From NCBI GenBank assembly GCA_002840275.1, contig PHAB01000005.1:1-64000 (forward strand): a stretch of 64,000 nucleotides of DNA, written 5' to 3'. Source of the stretch: Firmicutes bacterium HGW-Firmicutes-14. Lineage in GTDB: Bacteria > Bacillota > Thermincolia > Thermincolales > UBA2595. The notes under the pieces are model-generated. The model did no database searches and was not told where the DNA came from. It saw only the letters and a list, made by a program, of their open reading frames with translations. Of the stretch, positions 29,985 to 58,036 are shown piece after piece. Each line of letters starts with the position of its first letter. Within the stretch, counting starts at the first letter, position 1. Both the position numbers and the translations under genes were made by a program.

Positions 29985-30626
29985 TTATTTTACCTTGGCT
30001 AATAGTAAGCCATTATCCACTGCCCTGATAAACAAGTGGCCCGGAGGGGTAACAAGGAAACCCTGCCATAATACACCAAAGCTTGAAGATGTTATAAAAA
30101 GCGATTGTAACTTTAGATCATTAACAAGATACATAAAGATTAAAAGAACAAGAAGCCAAAGGGTTATGCTGATATAGGTGTGTTTTTTGACCTTCCGAGT
30201 GAGGGCCCCAGAATGTTCTTTATAATTGATGCTGTAACCAGGGCCAAAATATTCTATAATGATCACAAATATTACCGATGATATAAGTGCAAACAATAGA
30301 AGGTAATTTCCTGATATTATGCCAATAAGTGATTCTGAAAGAAATACCAGCAGAGAGAAAAAGATAAGGGTTGTGATTAGGCATCGGAAACTTGATGAGC
30401 AGTGCTGTCCTCCGGTTAACACCCTTAGGGGAACTGCGGTAGATAAGAAGAACAGCATGGGAGTTAAGAGTCCCATTAAATAGGCTGATAAAATCAAAAT
30501 TAAAAGCTTTACTGATTCTCCTATGATAAGCTCAAGCCCGTAAGCAAGGACCGGCGCTTTACCGGGTTCATTTATTAACTGGGAAAGGTAATCCCCGAGC
30601 TTCAAAGACAGACCGCGTATTGACAC
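29985..30626 (-). CDS. agrB: AgrB-like accessory gene regulator protease
   Basis: GTG 30626 with AGGAGGTG upstream, overlapping the end of the kinase gene. 213 residues, several membrane segments. The catalytic pair of AgrB is present: His in GGQHCSSSFRC and Cys seven residues later. AgrB removes the C-terminal tail of AgrD and forms the macrocycle. Adjacent agrD and receptor genes make the assignment firm. Confidence 0.93.
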   Translation of the reverse strand: MSIRGLSLKLGDYLSQLINEPGKAPVLAYGLELIIGESVKLLILILSAYLMGLLTPMLFFLSTAVPLRVLTGGQHCSSSFRCLITTLIFFSLLVFLSESLIGIISGNYLLLFALISSVIFVIIIEYFGPGYSINYKEHSGALTRKVKKHTYISITLWLLVLLIFMYLVNDLKLQSLFITSSSFGVLWQGFLVTPPGHLFIRAVDNGLLLAKVK

Positions 30627-30637
30627 AAAGGCACCTC

Positions 30638-31975
30638 CTATTTTACCGGGATTATGACACTGAAGGTTGTTCCATCTTCTTCCGAACTTCTGAGGGAGAT
30701 TTCGCCTCCGTTTCTTTCTACAAGGTCCTTGACAACCGCCAGGCCTAACCCTGAATGATTATCTTTAGTTGAGAAACCGCTGCTAAACACCTTAGCCATA
30801 TCATCGGCTTGTATAACAGGGCGGGGATTACATACATCAAATACAAATACAAAAGCGAATTTTTTCAGTGATACCTTGACCCGGCGGTATTCAGCCGGTT
30901 GTTGGGCAACCGCCTCAAGGGCATTGTCAATCAGGTTTCCCAGAATTTTAACAATTTCAAAGGGTTTAAGACTAAGACCATCCAATGGAGTTTCGATCCT
31001 GATTTCGAGGTTGATGTTGTGTCTTTCCGCGATGGCTGTTTTGGCATTGAACAATGCACTGAGCACAGGGTCTTTAACCTTTATTACATTACTGAGATTT
31101 TGGATTTCTTCAAGCAGGTTGTCCATATACTTGATTGCTTCCTGGGATTGGTCGGTGTTCAACATCGAATAAATTACCTGTACGTGGTGAATAAAATCAT
31201 GTCTCTGGGCTCTGATGGTGACAAAAAGTTTATTAATATTGTCTATAAAGGCTTCCTGTGTTTCTATAATCGATTCCTTTTCTGATAGTTCAAGCAGTCT
31301 TTTCAGAAAGAAAATTGAGACTATTGGAATAGTAAACAGGAGCAAGCTTATGGTGGCAGTAAAAATAAGGTTGTTCATGGAAGGCCAGTCAGTAGTATTC
31401 TTAATAAAAATTGTCAGGTTCAAAGCTCCGGATAGGGTAGCTTGAATTAGAACAAGACCGATGATAAGCAAAGTAATCTTTTCCCCGGTGTTCCTGGGAC
31501 GCAAAAGCCCGGAGGGTTGTATTAGTGAAATGTTTTTTTTCAAAAGAACAATTGTTATAGCTCCCATGAGTGAAAGGTGTACCCACCCTGTTAGTATGCG
31601 TAAATATGTGTTGTGAACAATCTCTTGTGTTGTTAGACCTGTAATTGCTGAAACTAGGGGATAGGATATCATTTCCGCCAGAAAAATTATTATGGAGGCC
31701 GTCATGATAAGGTAAAACGCCCGCAAAAGTGGTACCCTGAGATATTTCCAGGTAAGAAAAATAAACACAGGAATCTGAATCGCCATGTTGAGTCCGAACT
31801 GAATAGGAAGTGCCCGGACAATATAGGTTACCAGGGCGAGGGAAATACCCAGCAACACGACCCTGTATAAGTTTTCCTGTACCTTGTAGCCATAAATTGC
31901 GGAACACAGAGAGATTAAGATGATGCTTTCGGGGATGGAGTACAAAAGAAGAATTAGAATTGGCATTTTTTCCAT
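30638..31975 (-). CDS. AgrC-like receptor histidine kinase, copy 1
   Basis: 445 residues; ATG 31975 after GGGAGGAGG. About seven N-terminal membrane helices (to about 225), a helical dimerisation segment with the phospho-acceptor H259 in RAQRHDF, and a GHKL ATPase domain (about 320-445) with GNLIDNALEA and HSGLGLA. This is the layout of peptide pheromone receptors such as AgrC. Copy 2 at 32151-33488 has the same length and aligns without gaps through residue 260; the first 80 residues are about 60% identical by hand count. It lies directly upstream of agrB and overlaps its ribosome site. Confidence 0.92.
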   Translation of the reverse strand: MEKMPILILLLYSIPESIILISLCSAIYGYKVQENLYRVVLLGISLALVTYIVRALPIQFGLNMAIQIPVFIFLTWKYLRVPLLRAFYLIMTASIIIFLAEMISYPLVSAITGLTTQEIVHNTYLRILTGWVHLSLMGAITIVLLKKNISLIQPSGLLRPRNTGEKITLLIIGLVLIQATLSGALNLTIFIKNTTDWPSMNNLIFTATISLLLFTIPIVSIFFLKRLLELSEKESIIETQEAFIDNINKLFVTIRAQRHDFIHHVQVIYSMLNTDQSQEAIKYMDNLLEEIQNLSNVIKVKDPVLSALFNAKTAIAERHNINLEIRIETPLDGLSLKPFEIVKILGNLIDNALEAVAQQPAEYRRVKVSLKKFAFVFVFDVCNPRPVIQADDMAKVFSSGFSTKDNHSGLGLAVVKDLVERNGGEISLRSSEEDGTTFSVIIPVK

Positions 31976-32041
31976 TTAGTCAAGTCCTCCTCCCTTACAG
32001 GATTATTTTTAGATTTATGTTGTCTCTCCTTCTCAATCGGC

Positions 32042-32071
32042 ATAAAATGCGGTAATTGAGGGATAAAATGC
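32042..32071. promoter_or_regulatory. candidate LytTR operator (9-12-9 direct repeat)
   Basis: ATAAAATGC at 32042-32050 is repeated exactly at 32063-32071, with a 12-base spacer. LytTR regulators such as AgrA and ComE bind paired 9-base direct repeats with about 12 bases between them. It lies in the 175-base gap between the two kinase genes, upstream of the minus-strand kinase-agrB-agrD genes, where the LytTR regulator of the same locus would be expected to act. Confidence 0.6.
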
Positions 32072-32150
32072 CGGAACAATGGATTAAAATACAAAAAAAC
32101 GGAAACATCTTAGCCGGGCCCCCAGAAATGGAAATTGTGGGCAAAAGCAA

Positions 32151-33488
32151 TCATAGGGGAATCTTAACGGTAAAAACGGTTCCACCGGATTCACTACTGT
32201 GGACTTCAACCGATCCGCTATTCTCATATATAAGTTTTTTAACTATAAATAAACCCTGTCCCGAATGGGCGCCATCCTTAGTGGAAAAGCCCGGTTCAAA
32301 GATATTTTTCAATATTTCTCCGGGAATAACCGGCCGGGGGTTGGCTATCTGGAAAATGCAAAAATTATTCTGCATGAAAACATTTAAGATGACCCTACGG
32401 AACTCTTTATTTTGTTCCTGGACGGCATCTATTGCATTGTCGAGAAGATTTCCAAGTATTTTGACCAGGTCAAAGGACTTAATCCGGAGGGTTTTTAGAG
32501 GACAGGTAATGTTTATCTCCAGATTTATACCATGGGCAACTGCCATAGCCTGTTTACTTCTTAAGAGGGCTGTCACGGCGAGATTATCGACGCTTAAAAT
32601 TTCTCCGGTCTCCCTGTTTTCACCCACCAACTGGGTGAGATAATCATATGCTTCACCATGTTTTTTCAGTTGCAATAAACCCTGGATAACCTGAAGATGG
32701 TTAGCGAAATCATGCCTTTGACTCTTTAAAGTTAAGACCAGGTTGTTAATGTTTTCCAACATCACTTCCTGTGCTGCTCTGGTTGCTTCGTGTTCACTAA
32801 TGTCAAAAACTTTTTTTACAATGAAAATTGAAACAAGGGGAATGATAATTAGGGCGATTCCCGCTATTGTTTTTAATAATTGGTCATTAAAGAGTACCGG
32901 CACGATGTTGTTCTGACCAATCATATATGTTATTTGCAGGAGGCCTGCCAGTATGGCCTGAATTAATGCCGTAAACACAATAACGGCCATTTTATTACTA
33001 AAGGCGGTATTTTTCAAGAACTTACAGGCAGAAACAAAAGTTATCTGTTTTTTTAATATAAATAATGTTAAGATCAACAAACTGAACAAAGTTACTGAGG
33101 AACATAACATCCAGAGCCACCCATTGGCAAGCAAATTTTTGAGTGGATAGCCGGTTATCAGTGCTGCCAGAGTAAACACAATACTTTCAAGTAAAGAAAT
33201 CACTGTAAAACCTGTCAAAATTATTAACAAAGACTTCTTGAAGGAAATTTTTAAAAGATGGACCGTAAGAAAGATGAATATCGGAATCTGAATCAATACA
33301 TTTAGTCCCAGCTTTATGGGAAGAAGACGGACAAAATATGTTGTCAGGGCCAGACAGATACTAAGTAAAAATATTCTCTTGAAATTGCTTTTTACATTAT
33401 ATCCATAAAGGGAAGAGCTTAGAGAAATGAGGAGAATGCTCTCCGGAATGGAATAGAAAAATAATACAAATAAGGGGATTTTTAACAT
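32151..33488 (-). CDS. AgrC-like receptor histidine kinase, copy 2
   Basis: 445 residues; ATG 33488 after GAGGGAGA. Same architecture as copy 1: about seven membrane helices, H259 in KSQRHDF, and an ATPase domain with GNLLDNAIDA and HSGQGLF. The glycine of the lid differs slightly (SGQG versus SGLG). It is the first gene of the minus-strand Agr cluster and is separated from copy 1 by 175 bases that hold the 9-12-9 repeat. No second agrD is visible beside it, so either both kinases read the same peptide or this one senses another signal. Confidence 0.9.
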   Translation of the reverse strand: MLKIPLFVLFFYSIPESILLISLSSSLYGYNVKSNFKRIFLLSICLALTTYFVRLLPIKLGLNVLIQIPIFIFLTVHLLKISFKKSLLIILTGFTVISLLESIVFTLAALITGYPLKNLLANGWLWMLCSSVTLFSLLILTLFILKKQITFVSACKFLKNTAFSNKMAVIVFTALIQAILAGLLQITYMIGQNNIVPVLFNDQLLKTIAGIALIIIPLVSIFIVKKVFDISEHEATRAAQEVMLENINNLVLTLKSQRHDFANHLQVIQGLLQLKKHGEAYDYLTQLVGENRETGEILSVDNLAVTALLRSKQAMAVAHGINLEINITCPLKTLRIKSFDLVKILGNLLDNAIDAVQEQNKEFRRVILNVFMQNNFCIFQIANPRPVIPGEILKNIFEPGFSTKDGAHSGQGLFIVKKLIYENSGSVEVHSSESGGTVFTVKIPL

Positions 33489-34126: not shown

Positions 34127-34215
34127 CGGAACGCCATTGTTACCGGGCGCTTTTATCCTGCATGTTAATTATTGACATTTGCTCAGAAGTTCAATATAAT
34201 ATTAATAATTAAATA

Positions 34216-34405
34216 AATTGGTTTTAGGTGCCCTTAAATGGGAGAATAGGGAACCGGGTGTAAATCCCGGACGGACCCGCCACTGTAAAGTTTGAGCCGA
34301 TACCATGCCACTCCGTATAAAGGGGGAAGGGGTATTTAGGCAATGACACTGAGTCAGGAGACCTGCCTATAACCTGTTGGTGCAGCCTCGGGGTGAGGTG
34401 AACTG
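34216..34405 (+). promoter_or_regulatory. cobalamin riboswitch
   Basis: The conserved elements of a B12 riboswitch occur in order: GGTGCCC...GGGAATAGGG-type P3 region, GAACCGGGTG, the core CCGCCACTGTAA, and a 3' segment with GTCAGGAGACCTGCC. A terminator follows at 34419-34456. It should repress the downstream dehydrogenase / TrpD-like / 70-residue gene set when adenosyl- or other cobalamin is abundant. Confidence 0.93.
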
Positions 34406-34418
34406 GTGAGGAGTTGGT

Positions 34419-34456
34419 AATCCACACTTGTAATTTGGTGTGGATTTTTTATTTTT
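34419..34456 (+). terminator. riboswitch-controlled terminator
   Basis: AATCCACAC (34419-34427) pairs with GTGTGGATT (34438-34446), followed by TTTTATTTTT. It is placed between the B12 aptamer and the ribosome site at 34466. Confidence 0.88.
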
Positions 34457-34477
34457 AAAATGATAGGAGGTGAAGAA

Positions 34478-35524
34478 ATGAAAGCCGCACTCTTGGAAGG
34501 GGTAAAAGACATGCGAATTACAGATATACCTACCCCCAAATGCCGAAAAGGTGAGGTTTTGGTTCGTGTTGCTGTCTCTGGAATCTGCAGAACTGATATG
34601 AAGGCATATTACCTGGGGCAGAGGGATTTGCGGCTGCCACGGGTGTTAGGACATGAAATAACCGGGGTTGTTGAACAAATAGGACGGGGGGTTGCATGTG
34701 TACAACCCGGTGACCGGGTTCAGATAGCACCAGGCCTTTCGTGCGGGGTCTGTCCGTATTGCCAGGCAGGATTGGACCATCTATGCGACCGGGTAAAAGT
34801 TATGGGGTTCCACTATGATGGGGGATTTGCCGAGTTTGTCCTCATCCCTGAAACCGGGGTAAATAACGGTGTCCTGAATAAAATTCCTGACCATGTCTCT
34901 TTTGAGGAAGCAGCATTGGTAGAACCCCTGGCATGCAGCATTAATATGCAGGAAACCGCCTCCATCGGTTTGGGGGATTTAGTTGTGATATTTGGAGCAG
35001 GGCCACTTGGGATACTAAATGCCAAGCTTGCCAGGGTCAGGGGGGCTGGCCCGATTATTCTTGTGGAAAAAAGCAAAATCAGGTTAGCGTCGGTTACTAA
35101 GTATTTTGACTACAGTGTTGATGCGCTGGAGGATAATGTTATTGATCGAATACAGGAGATATCCGGCGGGAGAGGTGTTAATGCTGTTGTCCCCTGCTGC
35201 CCGGAGCCAAAAGCTTTTGTCGAGGGGTTGTTAGTGTTGGCAAAAAGGGGGAGACTTTGTTTCTTCAGTGGGGTATTGATAGATTCCCCTTCGCCTCCAA
35301 TAGATATAAACCTTATCCATTACAAAGAACTTTCGGTCTATGGTGCCTATGGCTGTTCAACTTCGCATAATAAGATGGCCCTGGAATTAATAGCTGACGG
35401 ATCAATAAATGTCCGGGACATGGTAACCCTTACTGTTCCGTTGAAAGAAGTTTTAAGCGGTATTGAATTAGTTGCAGGAAGTAAAGAAACAAAAATAGTT
35501 GTAGACATGTCTTTATCCACCTGA
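34478..35524 (+). CDS. zinc-dependent medium-chain dehydrogenase
   Basis: ATG 34478 after AGGAGGTGA (an in-frame ATG at 34460 precedes that site). 348 residues. Catalytic zinc ligands appear in GICRTD and GHE; the structural zinc loop is CGVCPYCQAGLDHLC; the nucleotide-binding motif is FGAGPLG with an acidic VEKS after strand 2, suggesting NAD. It resembles sorbitol/threonine dehydrogenases, but the substrate cannot be deduced. First gene under a cobalamin riboswitch, an uncommon location for this family. Confidence 0.87.
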   Translation: MKAALLEGVKDMRITDIPTPKCRKGEVLVRVAVSGICRTDMKAYYLGQRDLRLPRVLGHEITGVVEQIGRGVACVQPGDRVQIAPGLSCGVCPYCQAGLDHLCDRVKVMGFHYDGGFAEFVLIPETGVNNGVLNKIPDHVSFEEAALVEPLACSINMQETASIGLGDLVVIFGAGPLGILNAKLARVRGAGPIILVEKSKIRLASVTKYFDYSVDALEDNVIDRIQEISGGRGVNAVVPCCPEPKAFVEGLLVLAKRGRLCFFSGVLIDSPSPPIDINLIHYKELSVYGAYGCSTSHNKMALELIADGSINVRDMVTLTVPLKEVLSGIELVAGSKETKIVVDMSLST

Positions 35525-35575
35525 CGCCAAGAACTCTGTTGATAACACATGTTTATTAAAAGGAGGAAAGTTTAA

Positions 35576-36685
35576 ATGGATTTTAGTGATGTTAGAAAAT
35601 TTGGAGCAGGTATTACCCGGCTGATTAACAAACAGAATATAACCCGGAATGAGGCAAAAGAAATGTTTTCCCAGGTTCTGCTTAACAAGCAGCCTGATAT
35701 CCAGCAGGGAGCCTTTCTGGCGGCCTTGACAGCTAAAGGAGAAACTTCAGAAGAAATTGCCGGGAGTTGGGAGGCTATTTTTGATCTGGATACAGTAAAG
35801 GTGACTCCTGAAGTAATTGGCGGGGTCGTTGAAAACAGCGGGACTGGCATGGATTCGATAAAAACCTTTAATATAAGTACGGCGGCTTCAATTGTTGCAG
35901 CCAGCGCCGGCATTCCTATAGCCAGGCATGGGGCGCGGGCTATCACGTCCACTTGCGGAACGGTTGACATTCTTGAAGAGTTGGGAATAGATGTGGAATG
36001 TAATACGGAAGTTGTCAAAAACAGTATTGAAACAGCAGGCATAGGAATCTTTAATGGCATGAGTCCACAGGTACACCCCAAGGCGTTAGGCAGAATATTG
36101 TCCCAGATTGCTTTTGGTACTACTCTAAACATAGCAGCTTCATTGGCCAATCCTGCGTCACCCCGATATGCCGTCCGGGGAGTATATTCCAAAGAGCTTG
36201 TGGAACCTGTAGCCTTTGTGATGAAGGAAATCGGATTTAAGAGGGCCTTAGTAATACATGGGTTAGATGAAAGCGGAAAACATGGGATGGACGAAGCCTC
36301 TACAATTGGCGAAACCTGTGTTGCGGAACTGAGTGAAAACGGGGAAGTCAAAAAGTATTCCTTCACTCCTGAAGATATCGGAATTACCCGGCCTGATAAA
36401 AAACTGCTCAGCCCATCTCCTGACAGAAAACAAGAAGCTAAGCGCCTGGTATCTTTACTTGAAGGCTCTGAGAACGATGCGCGTTCAGACATTGTTTGTC
36501 TTAATGCGGGACTAATTCTGTGTTTAATGGGGAAAAGCAAAAACTTCAAAGAAGGATATTACCTGGCTAAGGAGATGATCAGGGAAGGTAAGCCAATCGA
36601 AAAGTTAAAGCAATGGGTAAGAGTGCAAAACTCTGATCCGGAAAAAGGCATCCAAAAACTAAATAGCCTGCTGCAGGCTATTTAA
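35576..36685 (+). CDS. divergent anthranilate phosphoribosyltransferase-like protein (TrpD family)
   Basis: ATG 35576 after AAAAGGAGG; 369 residues, long for TrpD (about 340). The TrpD/nucleoside-phosphorylase type III fold is clear: GTGMD at 89-93 (GTGGD in TrpD), FNISTAAS, RHGAR at 117-121 (KHGNR in TrpD), then GIFNGMSPQVHPKA, SLANPA and a C-terminal FTPEDIGI. PRPP-site residues are partly kept, but the Asn of KHGNR and the Arg of the GxRTxFN region, which contact anthranilate, are replaced. No trp genes are near and a B12 riboswitch controls the cluster, so a different aromatic or base acceptor is likely (inference). Confidence 0.82.
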   Translation: MDFSDVRKFGAGITRLINKQNITRNEAKEMFSQVLLNKQPDIQQGAFLAALTAKGETSEEIAGSWEAIFDLDTVKVTPEVIGGVVENSGTGMDSIKTFNISTAASIVAASAGIPIARHGARAITSTCGTVDILEELGIDVECNTEVVKNSIETAGIGIFNGMSPQVHPKALGRILSQIAFGTTLNIAASLANPASPRYAVRGVYSKELVEPVAFVMKEIGFKRALVIHGLDESGKHGMDEASTIGETCVAELSENGEVKKYSFTPEDIGITRPDKKLLSPSPDRKQEAKRLVSLLEGSENDARSDIVCLNAGLILCLMGKSKNFKEGYYLAKEMIREGKPIEKLKQWVRVQNSDPEKGIQKLNSLLQAI

Positions 36686-36714
36686 AGTTAACATGAGAAT
36701 GGAAGGTTGCTAAA

Positions 36715-36927
36715 GTGAAGTTATTTGCGTTAAAATGTGACGGGGGATACCTTAAGAAAGCCCCATCCGTTATTCAATGTGTTCCTATTGAGAAAGCCAC
36801 AGTCGTGAGCGAAAGTGGTTTGGAGGAAATGGAATCACTCGCGGCGGCAGCCAAAAAAGCGGGAATCACAAACATTTTCCTCATAGAACTTGTAGTTACT
36901 GAAGGACAGTGTCTGAAGAGGTTCTAA
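36715..36927 (+). CDS. 70-residue protein of unknown function
   Basis: GTG 36715 after GGAAGG, 30 bases downstream of the TrpD-like gene and inside the same riboswitch-controlled unit. The sequence begins MKLFALKCDGGYLKK, has an acidic middle with a helix (LEEMESLAAAAKKAG) and ends in a beta-strand and GQCLKRF; it contains three cysteines (KCD, QCV, QCL). I recognise no family. It could be a small subunit or a substrate carrier of the upstream enzymes. Confidence 0.7.
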   Translation: MKLFALKCDGGYLKKAPSVIQCVPIEKATVVSESGLEEMESLAAAAKKAGITNIFLIELVVTEGQCLKRF

Positions 36928-36996
36928 AATAAGCAAAACGAGGCTCGATTATTTTCCGTTTGACCCGATACGGTGAACCGCATGGAATGGCCAGAG

Positions 36997-37030
36997 AAGA
37001 GGTTCAGCATGGAGCTGAACCTCTTTTATT
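36997..37030. terminator. bidirectional terminator after the B12-regulated genes
   Basis: 12-bp perfect arms (36997-37008 and 37014-37025) with a 5-base loop, followed by TTATTATTT on the plus strand; it abuts the stop of the convergent lipoprotein gene. Confidence 0.88.
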
Positions 37031-38392: not shown

Positions 38393-41300
38393 ATGACTGA
38401 GAAAGTCAAAAGAGCCTATTCAAAACTTAACATTAAATTTAAAGTCTGCATCGTACTAAGCCTTGTTGCAATACTTCTGACAAGCTTTATCCTTATTGCC
38501 TCAGCGGGCAGCGGTATTAGTTTCAGCGGCCAGACACCGGCTGCGGGCACAATCACGGGGAACGCTGCACCGCTAATTTCGTTACAGGCCTCTGCTGAAG
38601 AGGGAACCATCGCTGCAGACGATGTTCAAATGGTTCTGAACGGGGCATCCGTTACTCCCGCTCTTTCCTTATCATCAGGCATCTATACTATTTCCCACAC
38701 CCCGGCACAAAAACTGGAGGACGGCTCCCAGTCTGTGTCTGTTAGCGTTTATGATACAATCGGAGGATTAAAAACAACAGACTGGAGTTTTACAGTGGAC
38801 GCGGCGCCAAAGGCGAGCAGTTGGTATCCCGCCAAGGGAAGTACGGTGACGGTTACTAACCCGAAGGTTTCTGTCTATGTCAAAGACACTTTTGATAATC
38901 TGAATGCCAACTCACTGGCCGTCAGACTTAACGGCGAACCTGTTGGAGCTGCCCTGCAATTTAAAGGCTACATTGATGCCTGCACCGAAACCTGGATTAT
39001 TCAGAGCTATAAAGAAGGAACAATCAGCTTAAATACGTCGGGTCTGCCGGAAGGCAATAATACTGTTGAAATAAGCATTGCCGACATTAACGGTAATGTT
39101 ATGGTTGAGACCTGGTCTTTCAAAGTGGACACCCTGCCCGTGTCAAGTAAATGGACTCCCGCCAAAGACAGCACCGTTACAACTGCCAGTCCCGCCATTT
39201 CACTATATGTTACTGCTAAAACGGAACTAAATAACCAGTCGGTAAACGCCAAACTTAACAGCGAACCTGTTGCCGCGACCCTGGAATATAAAGGCTATAT
39301 TGACAGCTGTACAGATACGTGGGTTATTCAGAGCTACAAAGAAGGGACGATTAAAATTAACCCATCTGGCCTTCAGGATGGTATTAATACCGTTGAAATG
39401 AGCATTGCCGACAATGCCGGTAACAGACTGGATGAAACATGGTCTTTCACCGTGGCGGAAACGCCGAAAATCACCGGCCTTTTCCCTGTGAACGGCAGTG
39501 AGAATGTCGCTGTGACAAAAGTATCTGCTATCATTAAGGATAATACCGCAGTGAACTGGGACGGTGTCAGGCTGTATATCAATAACAATGAAGTCAATTT
39601 TACCTACAATGAAGAAACCGGCGAGTTAACCGGCAACTATAACTTCCCCACCGGCAATCATCAGGTGAAGCTGGAAGCTGTTGATATGAACGGTAACAAG
39701 AGTACAGCCAACTGGAGCTTTGTTTCCAGTTCATCAGCTCCGGATCTCACCAAGCTTCAGTATTTCTCAAATGGTATGACGATTATTAACGGTATGTTGA
39801 AGTTTTCTGCCCAGTTGAACGATTCGGTAGATATAAACGATAATGTAACCCTCAAGCTTAACGGCGCTCCGCTGGACATGGACTTCAGGTTTAAGGGTTA
39901 TACAGATACATGCACTGACCAATACATAATTACATCAAGAAAAGAAGCCTATGTTTCATATGAAAAGAAAGTAATCGACGGTCAAAACCTTACCCTGGAG
40001 TTGTTTGCCGAAAATAAATACGGCTACAGCAGGACGTGGACCTGGACCTTTAATGTCCTGACTCCGCCCACCATAACTAACATAACTCCCGTGAAATACG
40101 GTGTGACTGAACTTCAGCCGGCTATTTCCGCAGTTATCGGTGACAATGACCATATTGCATCAATTGTAATGAAATTAAACGGAGTTGATGTTGATTATGA
40201 ATACGATCCCAATACCGGCAAGCTTACTTATATTCCTTCTGAACCATTGTCCAATGAGACCAAGTATACAGTCAGCCTGACGGCTGCCGACGGAATTGGC
40301 CTGACTGCCGACAGTACCTGGAAATTCATCGTGAACACATATCCTGATATGTATGACGGTAATGTAACCAGCTGCCAATCCTGTCACGAGAACCAAAACA
40401 ACCGGCCAAAGCCTAATGAGGCGATTCATCCCGGGCATCTTTTCCAGTTTGACAACCATTATGATTATTGCGACAGTTGCCATATATATATTACGGTACC
40501 TGATATCTGCAGCGGTTGTCACTCCGGGGAAGAAATTCCTGATCCATGGCCGCCGCACAATGAATATCCGGGCACAAAATATTCGCCAAAATACTATAAC
40601 ACTTCAGAACCGCTTAGGGTGACAACCAACAGGGAGGAATGGGACTGCATCATCTGTCACCAGCCCGGAGCGGGGACCAAGTCAGGATCTTCCTGGTGGA
40701 ATGCACCTCTGCTGAACAACCACGATATACCACAGCTCCACTTTGCACCGCTGACTCCGGATTCAGAGTCCTGCACTGAATGTCATGCCAGGTCGCTGAC
40801 CAGGGAGCACGCCAGGGAAGGGCGTGTTGATAAGAATGGCCAACCCATTACATGCTCAACATGTCATGATAGTACGGACCAATTAGTCGCAGGCGCTATC
40901 ACTGCTAAAGATACGAGCTGTACGGCCTGCCATGCAAATGCGGACCACGAGAGCTTACATGTTAGCAGTGTGGACACATACTGCGGAGAGTGCCACATTG
41001 GCTCCCTGACCTCGGAGCATTTGGACAATGCGGTAACCACGGGAACCAAGGGTTATAGCTGTCAGACTTGTCATGTGAGCACCAGAAAAGAAGTAACCAG
41101 GTCGATTGAGACCAGCAGGCGGAACTGTACCAGTTGTCATACCGAAGGCCACAATGTTTACTTCGCTGACGAAGTGCCGGATGACATCCCGCTCCACGAT
41201 TCCTTTAACTGGACCACACCCATGGAAGCGGAAATATTTGCCGGTGAAAACGGTGTGCCTGCAGATTATGTGAGCGGTCAGGTGGTAATGTCCAACAGGC

Positions 41301-41527
41301 GCTCAGATATGACTCAGGATAATATATGGAATTTCTATAATGACTTCTTGACATCAAATGGCTGGGAGCGTCTGTCTTACACGGTCTCGAATGATGGCCT
41401 GCGCTTCGTTGCAGAGTTTAATAAAGGAAGCCGTAATGTTTTAATAAACTTCTTCAACACTCCAAGCCGGACCGGTGAGGGCAGCCCCGTCCCGGCGGGT
41501 TATAGGCTTGAAATCTGGTATAATTAA
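38393..41527 (+). CDS. secreted decaheme c-type cytochrome with Ig-like repeats
   Basis: ATG 38393; 1044 residues. Signal peptide at about 16-40, then roughly 600 residues of Ig-like beta domains, three of which share a conserved core (GYIDACTETW, GYIDSCTDTW, GYTDTCTDQY). A heme region (about 661-916) holds ten CxxCH motifs, from CQSCH at 661 to CTSCH at 912. The last 115 residues form a domain I do not recognise (FYNDFLTSNGW, YRLEIWYN). There is no LPXTG or membrane anchor. Ten covalent hemes on an extracellular stalk suggest electron transfer across or beyond the wall, as proposed for Thermincola-type Gram-positive metal reducers; acceptor and localisation are inferred. Confidence 0.92.
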   Translation: MTEKVKRAYSKLNIKFKVCIVLSLVAILLTSFILIASAGSGISFSGQTPAAGTITGNAAPLISLQASAEEGTIAADDVQMVLNGASVTPALSLSSGIYTISHTPAQKLEDGSQSVSVSVYDTIGGLKTTDWSFTVDAAPKASSWYPAKGSTVTVTNPKVSVYVKDTFDNLNANSLAVRLNGEPVGAALQFKGYIDACTETWIIQSYKEGTISLNTSGLPEGNNTVEISIADINGNVMVETWSFKVDTLPVSSKWTPAKDSTVTTASPAISLYVTAKTELNNQSVNAKLNSEPVAATLEYKGYIDSCTDTWVIQSYKEGTIKINPSGLQDGINTVEMSIADNAGNRLDETWSFTVAETPKITGLFPVNGSENVAVTKVSAIIKDNTAVNWDGVRLYINNNEVNFTYNEETGELTGNYNFPTGNHQVKLEAVDMNGNKSTANWSFVSSSSAPDLTKLQYFSNGMTIINGMLKFSAQLNDSVDINDNVTLKLNGAPLDMDFRFKGYTDTCTDQYIITSRKEAYVSYEKKVIDGQNLTLELFAENKYGYSRTWTWTFNVLTPPTITNITPVKYGVTELQPAISAVIGDNDHIASIVMKLNGVDVDYEYDPNTGKLTYIPSEPLSNETKYTVSLTAADGIGLTADSTWKFIVNTYPDMYDGNVTSCQSCHENQNNRPKPNEAIHPGHLFQFDNHYDYCDSCHIYITVPDICSGCHSGEEIPDPWPPHNEYPGTKYSPKYYNTSEPLRVTTNREEWDCIICHQPGAGTKSGSSWWNAPLLNNHDIPQLHFAPLTPDSESCTECHARSLTREHAREGRVDKNGQPITCSTCHDSTDQLVAGAITAKDTSCTACHANADHESLHVSSVDTYCGECHIGSLTSEHLDNAVTTGTKGYSCQTCHVSTRKEVTRSIETSRRNCTSCHTEGHNVYFADEVPDDIPLHDSFNWTTPMEAEIFAGENGVPADYVSGQVVMSNRRSDMTQDNIWNFYNDFLTSNGWERLSYTVSNDGLRFVAEFNKGSRNVLINFFNTPSRTGEGSPVPAGYRLEIWYN

Positions 41528-48609: not shown

Positions 48610-48635
48610 TACAATTATTATATATATAGGATTCT

Positions 48636-48716
48636 GAATAAAGGCAAACTCGCTGAAAGGCGGGGGCGCAAAGCCATGGGTCTAAGGGTTTTATACTATG
48701 ATTGCCAGGCTGCCGG
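48636..48716 (+). promoter_or_regulatory. class I cyclic-di-GMP riboswitch (GEMM-I), copy 2
   Basis: It has the same core as the element at 119-203: AAAGGCAAAC, a P2 stem with GAAA loop (GCTGAAAGGC), GCGCAAAGCCATGGGTCTAA, and GATTGCCAGGCTGCCGG. A terminator follows at 48730-48763. It precedes a dCache chemoreceptor gene at 48811, so c-di-GMP controls production of a receptor. Confidence 0.93.
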
Positions 48717-48729
48717 AATAGGTTTTTTG

Positions 48730-57916: not shown

Positions 57917-57935
57917 TAAGGAAACTTAAAAACCA

Positions 57936-58023
57936 ATTAGCTGGGGGTGCCGAAAGGCTGAGAGGAGATATGCCAACCCTTGGAACCTGATTTTCCGGGT
58001 AATACCGGCGGAGGGAAGCTAAC
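57936..58023 (+). promoter_or_regulatory. TPP riboswitch (THI element)
   Basis: All conserved pieces are present: GGGGGTGCC, GGCTGAGAGGAGATA, CCCTTGGAACCTGA, CCGGGTAATACCGGCG, GGAGGGAAGCTA. A terminator follows at 58037-58066. It should shut off thiSGH when thiamine pyrophosphate is plentiful. Confidence 0.97.
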
Positions 58024-58036
58024 CTTTTTTTAGGAT

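Follow-up and report, generated by a model that had tools for sequence, protein, structure and literature searches.

Several described systems prepare or activate the lower ligand of cobamides. Anaerobes use the bzaA-F pathway, which works together with CobT, is under B12 riboswitch control and has cobT and cobS as neighbours. CobT itself (PF02277, TIGR03160; TIGR00303 for the archaeal enzyme) uses nicotinate mononucleotide (NaMN), and ArsAB, a tandem pair of CobT homologues, acts on phenolic lower ligands. Here we analysed a window of 64,000 nucleotides from Firmicutes bacterium HGW-Firmicutes-14 (contig PHAB01000005.1, positions 1 to 64,000; source genome of 3.65 Mb in 67 contigs). It carries a B12 riboswitch followed by genes for a zinc-dependent dehydrogenase (DH), a TrpD-like phosphoribosyltransferase and a protein of 70 amino acids (aa), hereafter called the module. 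The module resembles the bza genes in its riboswitch, its cobT and cobS neighbours and its occurrence in anaerobes, and one locus (L069) has both in the same operon. It differs from them in its enzymes: a profile search detected neither ThiC-like BzaA/B/F nor BzaC-E in the module of the window, and the bza genes of this genome lie elsewhere. CobT is a partner of the module, but neither the TrpD-like protein nor the stand-alone DH is a CobT homologue by sequence (no PF02277 match), and the TrpD family uses phosphoribosyl pyrophosphate (PRPP) rather than NaMN. With ArsAB the module would share a specialised role in lower-ligand activation, but it contains no tandem pair of CobT homologues.

Linkage to CobT and B12 control

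We compared 42 loci, which come from methanogen-type archaea and from four phyla of bacteria. They place the module in the lower-ligand (nucleotide-loop) branch of cobamide synthesis, as the initial annotation had suggested, and this assignment is well supported. DH adjoins the TrpD-like gene in 39 of these loci; in the three where it was not seen (L070, L126 and L181), the TrpD-like gene sits near a contig end. CobT is linked to the module in 23 loci, archaea included: as a neighbour in 16 and as part of a fusion with DH in seven. The fusions, in which DH forms the N-terminal and CobT the C-terminal half, were found in Desulfobacterota, Spirochaetota and Fermentibacterota; four of the seven were scored or read directly (PF02277 E values of 1e-124 to 1e-129 in three; translation) and the rest were detected by tblastn. 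Two of the fused CobT parts also score above the TIGR03160 cut-off. A separate CobT lies next door in 14 loci, and two further archaeal loci have the archaeal CobT (TIGR00303).

Other cobamide genes accompany the module as well. The order in L122 to L124 is riboswitch, DH, TrpD-like gene, CobT and a CobS-like gene (CobS read from the sequence), while in L069 riboswitch, DH, TrpD-like gene and small protein are followed by two BzaA/B-type proteins, CobT and an energy-coupling factor (ECF)-type transporter component. CbiZ adjoins the DH/TrpD-like pair in L125. In Desulfospira there are two CobTs with a separate riboswitch for each; one has a BzaF-like gene as its neighbour and the other is fused to DH, as expected for two different ligands. 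A clade of CobTs specific to the module was considered, but only the fused CobTs form one (Shimodaira-Hasegawa approximate likelihood-ratio test, SH-aLRT, 100); the adjacent ones do not. The idea that the TrpD-like protein replaces CobT in archaea, raised by the lack of a PF02277 match in a Methanothrix bin, was dropped because archaeal operons carry a bacterial-type or an archaeal CobT next to the DH/TrpD-like pair. Separately, a short second CobT-like protein (308 aa, 31% identity; L131:7132-8058) is encoded away from cobamide genes in one genome (G263).

In the window, positions 34172-37027 form a single transcription unit on the forward strand. A sigma-70 type promoter (TTGACA-17-TATAAT, 34172-34200, matching the consensus at 12 of 12 positions) lies directly 5' of a full-length Cobalamin riboswitch aptamer (RF00174, model positions 1-189; 34209-34384; 110.2 bits against a gathering score of 31.5, E=1e-26), one of nine RF00174 matches in the genome. 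A terminator scan placed an intrinsic hairpin with a T-run at 34419-34446, between the aptamer and the DH gene (fold -15.6 kcal/mol, z=-3.6), a predicted transcriptional OFF switch. DH (34478-35524), the TrpD-like gene (35576-36685) and the 70-aa protein (36715-36927) follow, and a bidirectional intrinsic terminator with a 14-pair stem and a T-run (36995-37027) ends the operon. The succession of riboswitch, dehydrogenase, TrpD homologue and small protein, previously read from the letters, was thus confirmed by RF00174, Pfam and open reading frame (ORF) analysis. In the window, 93 bases separate the aptamer from the first start codon; 15 other loci have 50-109 bases at this place.

An RF00174 match above the gathering score was present 5' of the operon in 25 of the 26 bacterial loci with enough upstream sequence, and the 26th (L119) has a sub-threshold match (28.3 bits, E 5.5e-5). 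By contrast, no Cobalamin riboswitch was detected at 40 ordinary trpD loci (control set, 157 kb). B12 control of the module is therefore general throughout the bacteria. The initial annotation had named orthologues in unrelated operons free of B12 control as the case that would speak against its reading; with all 26 evaluable bacterial loci behind a riboswitch, none of the 40 controls so placed, and the CobT linkage described above, no such case emerged.

The proteins of the module

The TrpD-like protein matches the domain profiles of the TrpD family (PF00591, E 3.8e-59; PF02885) and scores 277 bits against the TIGR01245 cut-off of 199, so that automatic annotation will label its gene trpD. 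Its predicted model (predicted local distance difference test, pLDDT, 87.7) matches TrpD crystal structures along its entire length, with Z 41.5 and a root-mean-square deviation of 2.1 over 340 residues, and the PRPP/Mg motifs (GTG-D, N-[IV]-S-[ST] and DE) are conserved in the alignment of the family. The acceptor side, in contrast, is changed throughout the family: GTGM/AD stands for GTGGD, [KR]HG[AS]R for KHGNR, AASLANP for LGPLxNP, and FNGMSPxVHPxALGRILSQIxFG where TrpD has FAPxxHxAM...P-R-[RK]-E-[IL]-G, and five residues are added before MDE. Both anthranilate-arginine positions, which we take to be equivalent to Arg193/Arg194 of Mycobacterium tuberculosis TrpD (from general knowledge and PDB titles), are Leu175/Ser176 in the protein of the window and are invariant in an alignment of 13 proteins. 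GTGMD, RHGAR and the lost arginine, the three changes first noticed in the window, are therefore a property of the family and not noise.

The phylogeny of TrpD-like proteins called for in the initial annotation points the same way. In a tree of 70 proteins, a branch with SH-aLRT 100 separates 22 TrpD-like sequences from 48 TrpD sequences, and the TrpD-like clade is riboswitch-linked throughout the bacteria. The genome of the window has a second trpD, 38% identical to the TrpD-like protein, in an apparently complete trp operon (judged by order and sizes; only trpD was tested by homology), whereas the TrpD-like gene lies outside any trp operon in the loci read. The TrpD-like protein is thus not the ANTHRANILATE phosphoribosyltransferase, the enzyme of tryptophan synthesis, and is predicted from its sequence to use an acceptor other than anthranilate; the separate clade, the lost arginines and the true trpD elsewhere in the genome all argue for this, and the earlier annotation was right on the point. 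That it could be a second, ordinary anthranilate phosphoribosyltransferase is hardly credible: the TIGR01245 score and the fold would fit, but both arginines are replaced clade-wide, the clade is separate, and a true trpD exists in the trp operon of the same genome and even beside the TrpD-like gene at one locus (L122).

The start of DH was refined from 34460 in the ORF list to 34478, an ATG behind the Shine-Dalgarno sequence AGGAGG, in agreement with the N-termini of orthologues. The protein is a zinc-dependent medium-chain dehydrogenase (PF08240/PF00107) of predicted NAD(H) type. Its family keeps the catalytic zinc Cys and the GHE motif (GEE in L121 and L125) and the four-cysteine structural zinc site (one Cys lost in L069), and its Rossmann motif GxGxxG is followed by an acidic residue after beta-2, which indicates NAD. 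By zinc ligands, Rossmann motif and family scores it comes closest to the secondary-alcohol dehydrogenases of the threonine/sorbitol (polyol) group, yet it stays far under each of their equivalog cut-offs (180.9 against 458 bits for L-threonine 3-dehydrogenase, tdh).

Relatives of the 70-aa protein occur in most bacterial versions of the operon, and none was found in the archaeal loci among the neighbourhoods compared; since archaea lack it, the protein is regarded as accessory. It is confidently modelled as a small alpha/beta protein (pLDDT 92.5). No Pfam or NCBIfam family was matched above cut-off (the only hit, DUF7526, had a sub-threshold E of 0.0055). A PDB sequence search returned no convincing relative, its best match being a designed repeat protein that we read as chance, and the structure search gave no Foldseek match below E 1 (best VIA Z 3.9).

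Carriers of the module and their lower-ligand genes

In the named-genome collection, the closest relative of the TrpD-like protein (96% identity) was found in a metagenome-assembled genome (MAG) of Thermincola ferriacetica. The scan of this collection detected the family in a Firmicutes MAG, Thermincola, Desulfospira joergensenii, Desulfobulbaceae, Candidatus Sabulitectum, a Spirochaetes MAG and Methanothrix harundinacea. Among sampled genomes it occurs in 10 of 398 from the phylum of the window (one partial, one distant), 10 of 297 from that of Desulfospira and 21 of 294 from that of Methanothrix; no relative was found in viral contigs. Two members are unusual. The most divergent clear one (GTGAD; genome G428, L126:4026-7448) is found where a contig ends, 5' of a gene for a molybdopterin oxidoreductase, and the sequence upstream of it is missing from the contig. 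A distant one (42% identity, GSGAD; L071:1060-3367) has a Cobalamin riboswitch and a DH of 36% identity upstream, and one stop codon interrupts the match.

Most carriers were found to be without bluB and bza genes. BluB scored above cut-off in none of the 34 carriers tested, and a minority have more than one ThiC-like gene. In the ThiC-like tree, BzaA and BzaB were present only in the genome of the window (G000), G298 and G306, and BzaF-like proteins only in G399 and G490; the extra ThiC-like copies of Methanothrix have no clear place. The genome taken as Dehalobacter DCA (G209) carries the module and has no ThiC-like gene, and none of the other sampled members of its family, G185 included, has the module. 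Dehalobacter CF, whose genome is 99.87% identical to that of DCA over an aligned 2.9 Mb (PMC4751268), is reported to make a cobamide matching no known one (PMC11348799).

The genome of the window contains bzaA, bzaB, cobS, a methyltransferase, bzaD and a second B12 radical-SAM protein in one operon (the methyltransferase and the last gene being assigned as bzaC and bzaE by position). This full anaerobic dimethylbenzimidazole-type operon (G000:C15:33100-41572, L128) lies behind two tandem Cobalamin riboswitches, and its methyltransferase has a C-terminal DUF2284-like part.

Other features were observed in the window and related genomes. A Cobalamin riboswitch precedes genes including an aldehyde:ferredoxin oxidoreductase, itself preceded by a small ECF-like membrane protein, both in Thermincola ferriacetica about 4 kb downstream of the module (L048:14714-17759) and in the genome of the window (G000:C23, L052:5842-11276); one would not expect B12 to control such an enzyme. 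The protein of 1044 aa encoded at 38393-41527 of the window has bacterial Ig-like repeats and, after them, cytochrome c7-type multihaem domains; it is probably the surface cytochrome of a metal-reducing organism. On the minus strand, 29985-33488 encodes an agr-type quorum-sensing set in which the kinase is duplicated, with one AgrB-like protein and two AgrC-like GHKL sensor kinases. Two cyclic di-GMP-I riboswitches (117-200 and 48633-48717) and a thiamine pyrophosphate riboswitch (57933-58033) score over their gathering thresholds.

Proposed function and significance

We consider it fairly probable that the module is a B12-repressed operon of the lower-ligand branch that makes or prepares an aromatic base for CobT. 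When cobamide is scarce, the riboswitch would let transcription pass the terminator ending at 34446, and the cell would then make the zinc/NAD-type DH and a transferase of TrpD fold predicted to use PRPP but not anthranilate. Together they may make or prepare the aromatic lower-ligand base, which would itself be the product. By analogy with TrpD, which does so on the way to indole, or with aminoimidazole ribotide, which serves the Bza route, the transferase could put phosphoribose on a precursor. CobT would join the base to ribose phosphate and CobS would then build the cobamide, presumably in this order. As for the chemistry, an aromatic amine might be phosphoribosylated, the ring closed with a ribose carbon and the product oxidised by DH in a two-electron step, which would be an oxygen-free counterpart of BluB.

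Synthesis of a base is suggested by the fusion of DH to the enzyme that consumes it, by the two CobTs of Desulfospira with a riboswitch each, by the scarcity of known benzimidazole genes in carriers, and by the unmatched cobamide reported for the sister strain of the carrier DCA, whose other sampled family members are without the module. Several observations weigh in the other direction. Because its bzaA-B-cobS-C-D-E type operon is complete, the organism of the window is predicted to make cobalamin (with 5,6-dimethylbenzimidazole) without the module, which is the main evidence against the module being the only ligand source; L069 likewise combines the module with a bzaAB pair. The module was seen in DCA, whereas the odd cobamide is a second-hand report for CF. 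With just two enzymes conserved across both domains, the set is small for building a heteroaromatic base, and in the phylum of the window most carriers have no CobT adjoining the module.

The chief rival is that the module supplies a donor rather than a base, the TrpD-like protein making a beta-ribotide (NaMN or a dedicated analogue) for CobT from PRPP and an aromatic acid. A double inversion would give the alpha-ribotide, the acid would be recycled, DH would make or maintain it, and the module would suit any base. Donor supply would explain why the partner is CobT and fits the established stereochemistry of PRPP transferases and CobT. It also fits better than base synthesis the presence of the module alongside bzaA-E (G000), a bzaAB pair (L069), a BzaF-like gene (G399) or no benzimidazole genes at all. 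We nevertheless judge it unlikely: NaMN is a common metabolite and most CobT-using organisms need no such module, DH is left without a clear task, and neither the dedicated second CobT of Desulfospira nor the unmatched cobamide reported for Dehalobacter CF is accounted for. That cobamide would suit a modified nucleotide loop, in which DH oxidises or epimerises a hydroxyl of the ribose phosphate, and so would the kinship of DH to polyol/threonine secondary-alcohol dehydrogenases and the fact that both its partners handle phosphoribose. This is improbable, however, as we know of no sugar-modified natural cobamide, and CobT and CobS would both have to accept the altered sugar. PRPP transferases of the TrpD fold invert to beta-ribotides and cobamides need alpha-ribotides; since, moreover, CobT is a recurrent partner and is not bypassed, direct synthesis of an alpha-ribotide in parallel with CobT/ArsAB, as first envisaged, is less likely than action together with CobT.

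B12 riboswitches do control B12-sparing genes such as metE and nrd, and the initial annotation had accordingly offered a B12-sparing or unrelated pathway switched on at low cobalamin as an alternative. This gained no support and is now very improbable, given that in distant phyla and in archaea the module is linked or fused to CobT and linked to bza, cobS and further genes of cobamide synthesis. Synthesis of the unsubstituted purine of purinyl-cobamide was rejected as a leading idea and appears just as remote. Dehalobacter DCA and further members of its order do carry the module, and Desulfitobacterium makes purinyl-cobamide without benzimidazole genes (PMC6389850), but four genomes taken as Desulfitobacterium (G345, G385, G1015 and G1016) have no TrpD-like match, only a canonical trpD or none, and labelling in D. 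hafniense DCB-2 traced the purine nitrogen to yeast extract (PMC6389850).

If base synthesis is correct, the module could be a third, hitherto undescribed route to a cobamide lower ligand, common to anaerobic bacteria and archaea: phosphoribosylation of a non-anthranilate aromatic by a TrpD fold, a two-electron step by DH that finishes the base, and attachment by CobT. We put forward only tentatively that this route yields a new ligand and explains the cobamide of Dehalobacter CF/DCA. No paper linking trpD homologues to cobamide lower ligands was found in the literature searched.

Which microbes and enzymes are able to use a given cobamide depends on its lower ligand. A survey of 11,000 bacterial species could predict the ligand structure for only 58% of predicted producers and suggested purinyl cobamides for the remainder (PMC6461909). 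Such surveys would miss a CobT-linked module to which current models give the label "anthranilate phosphoribosyltransferase". The module spans two domains of life, and for the native cobamide of chloroform-respiring Dehalobacter, which is still unexplained, it provides a concrete gene to target.

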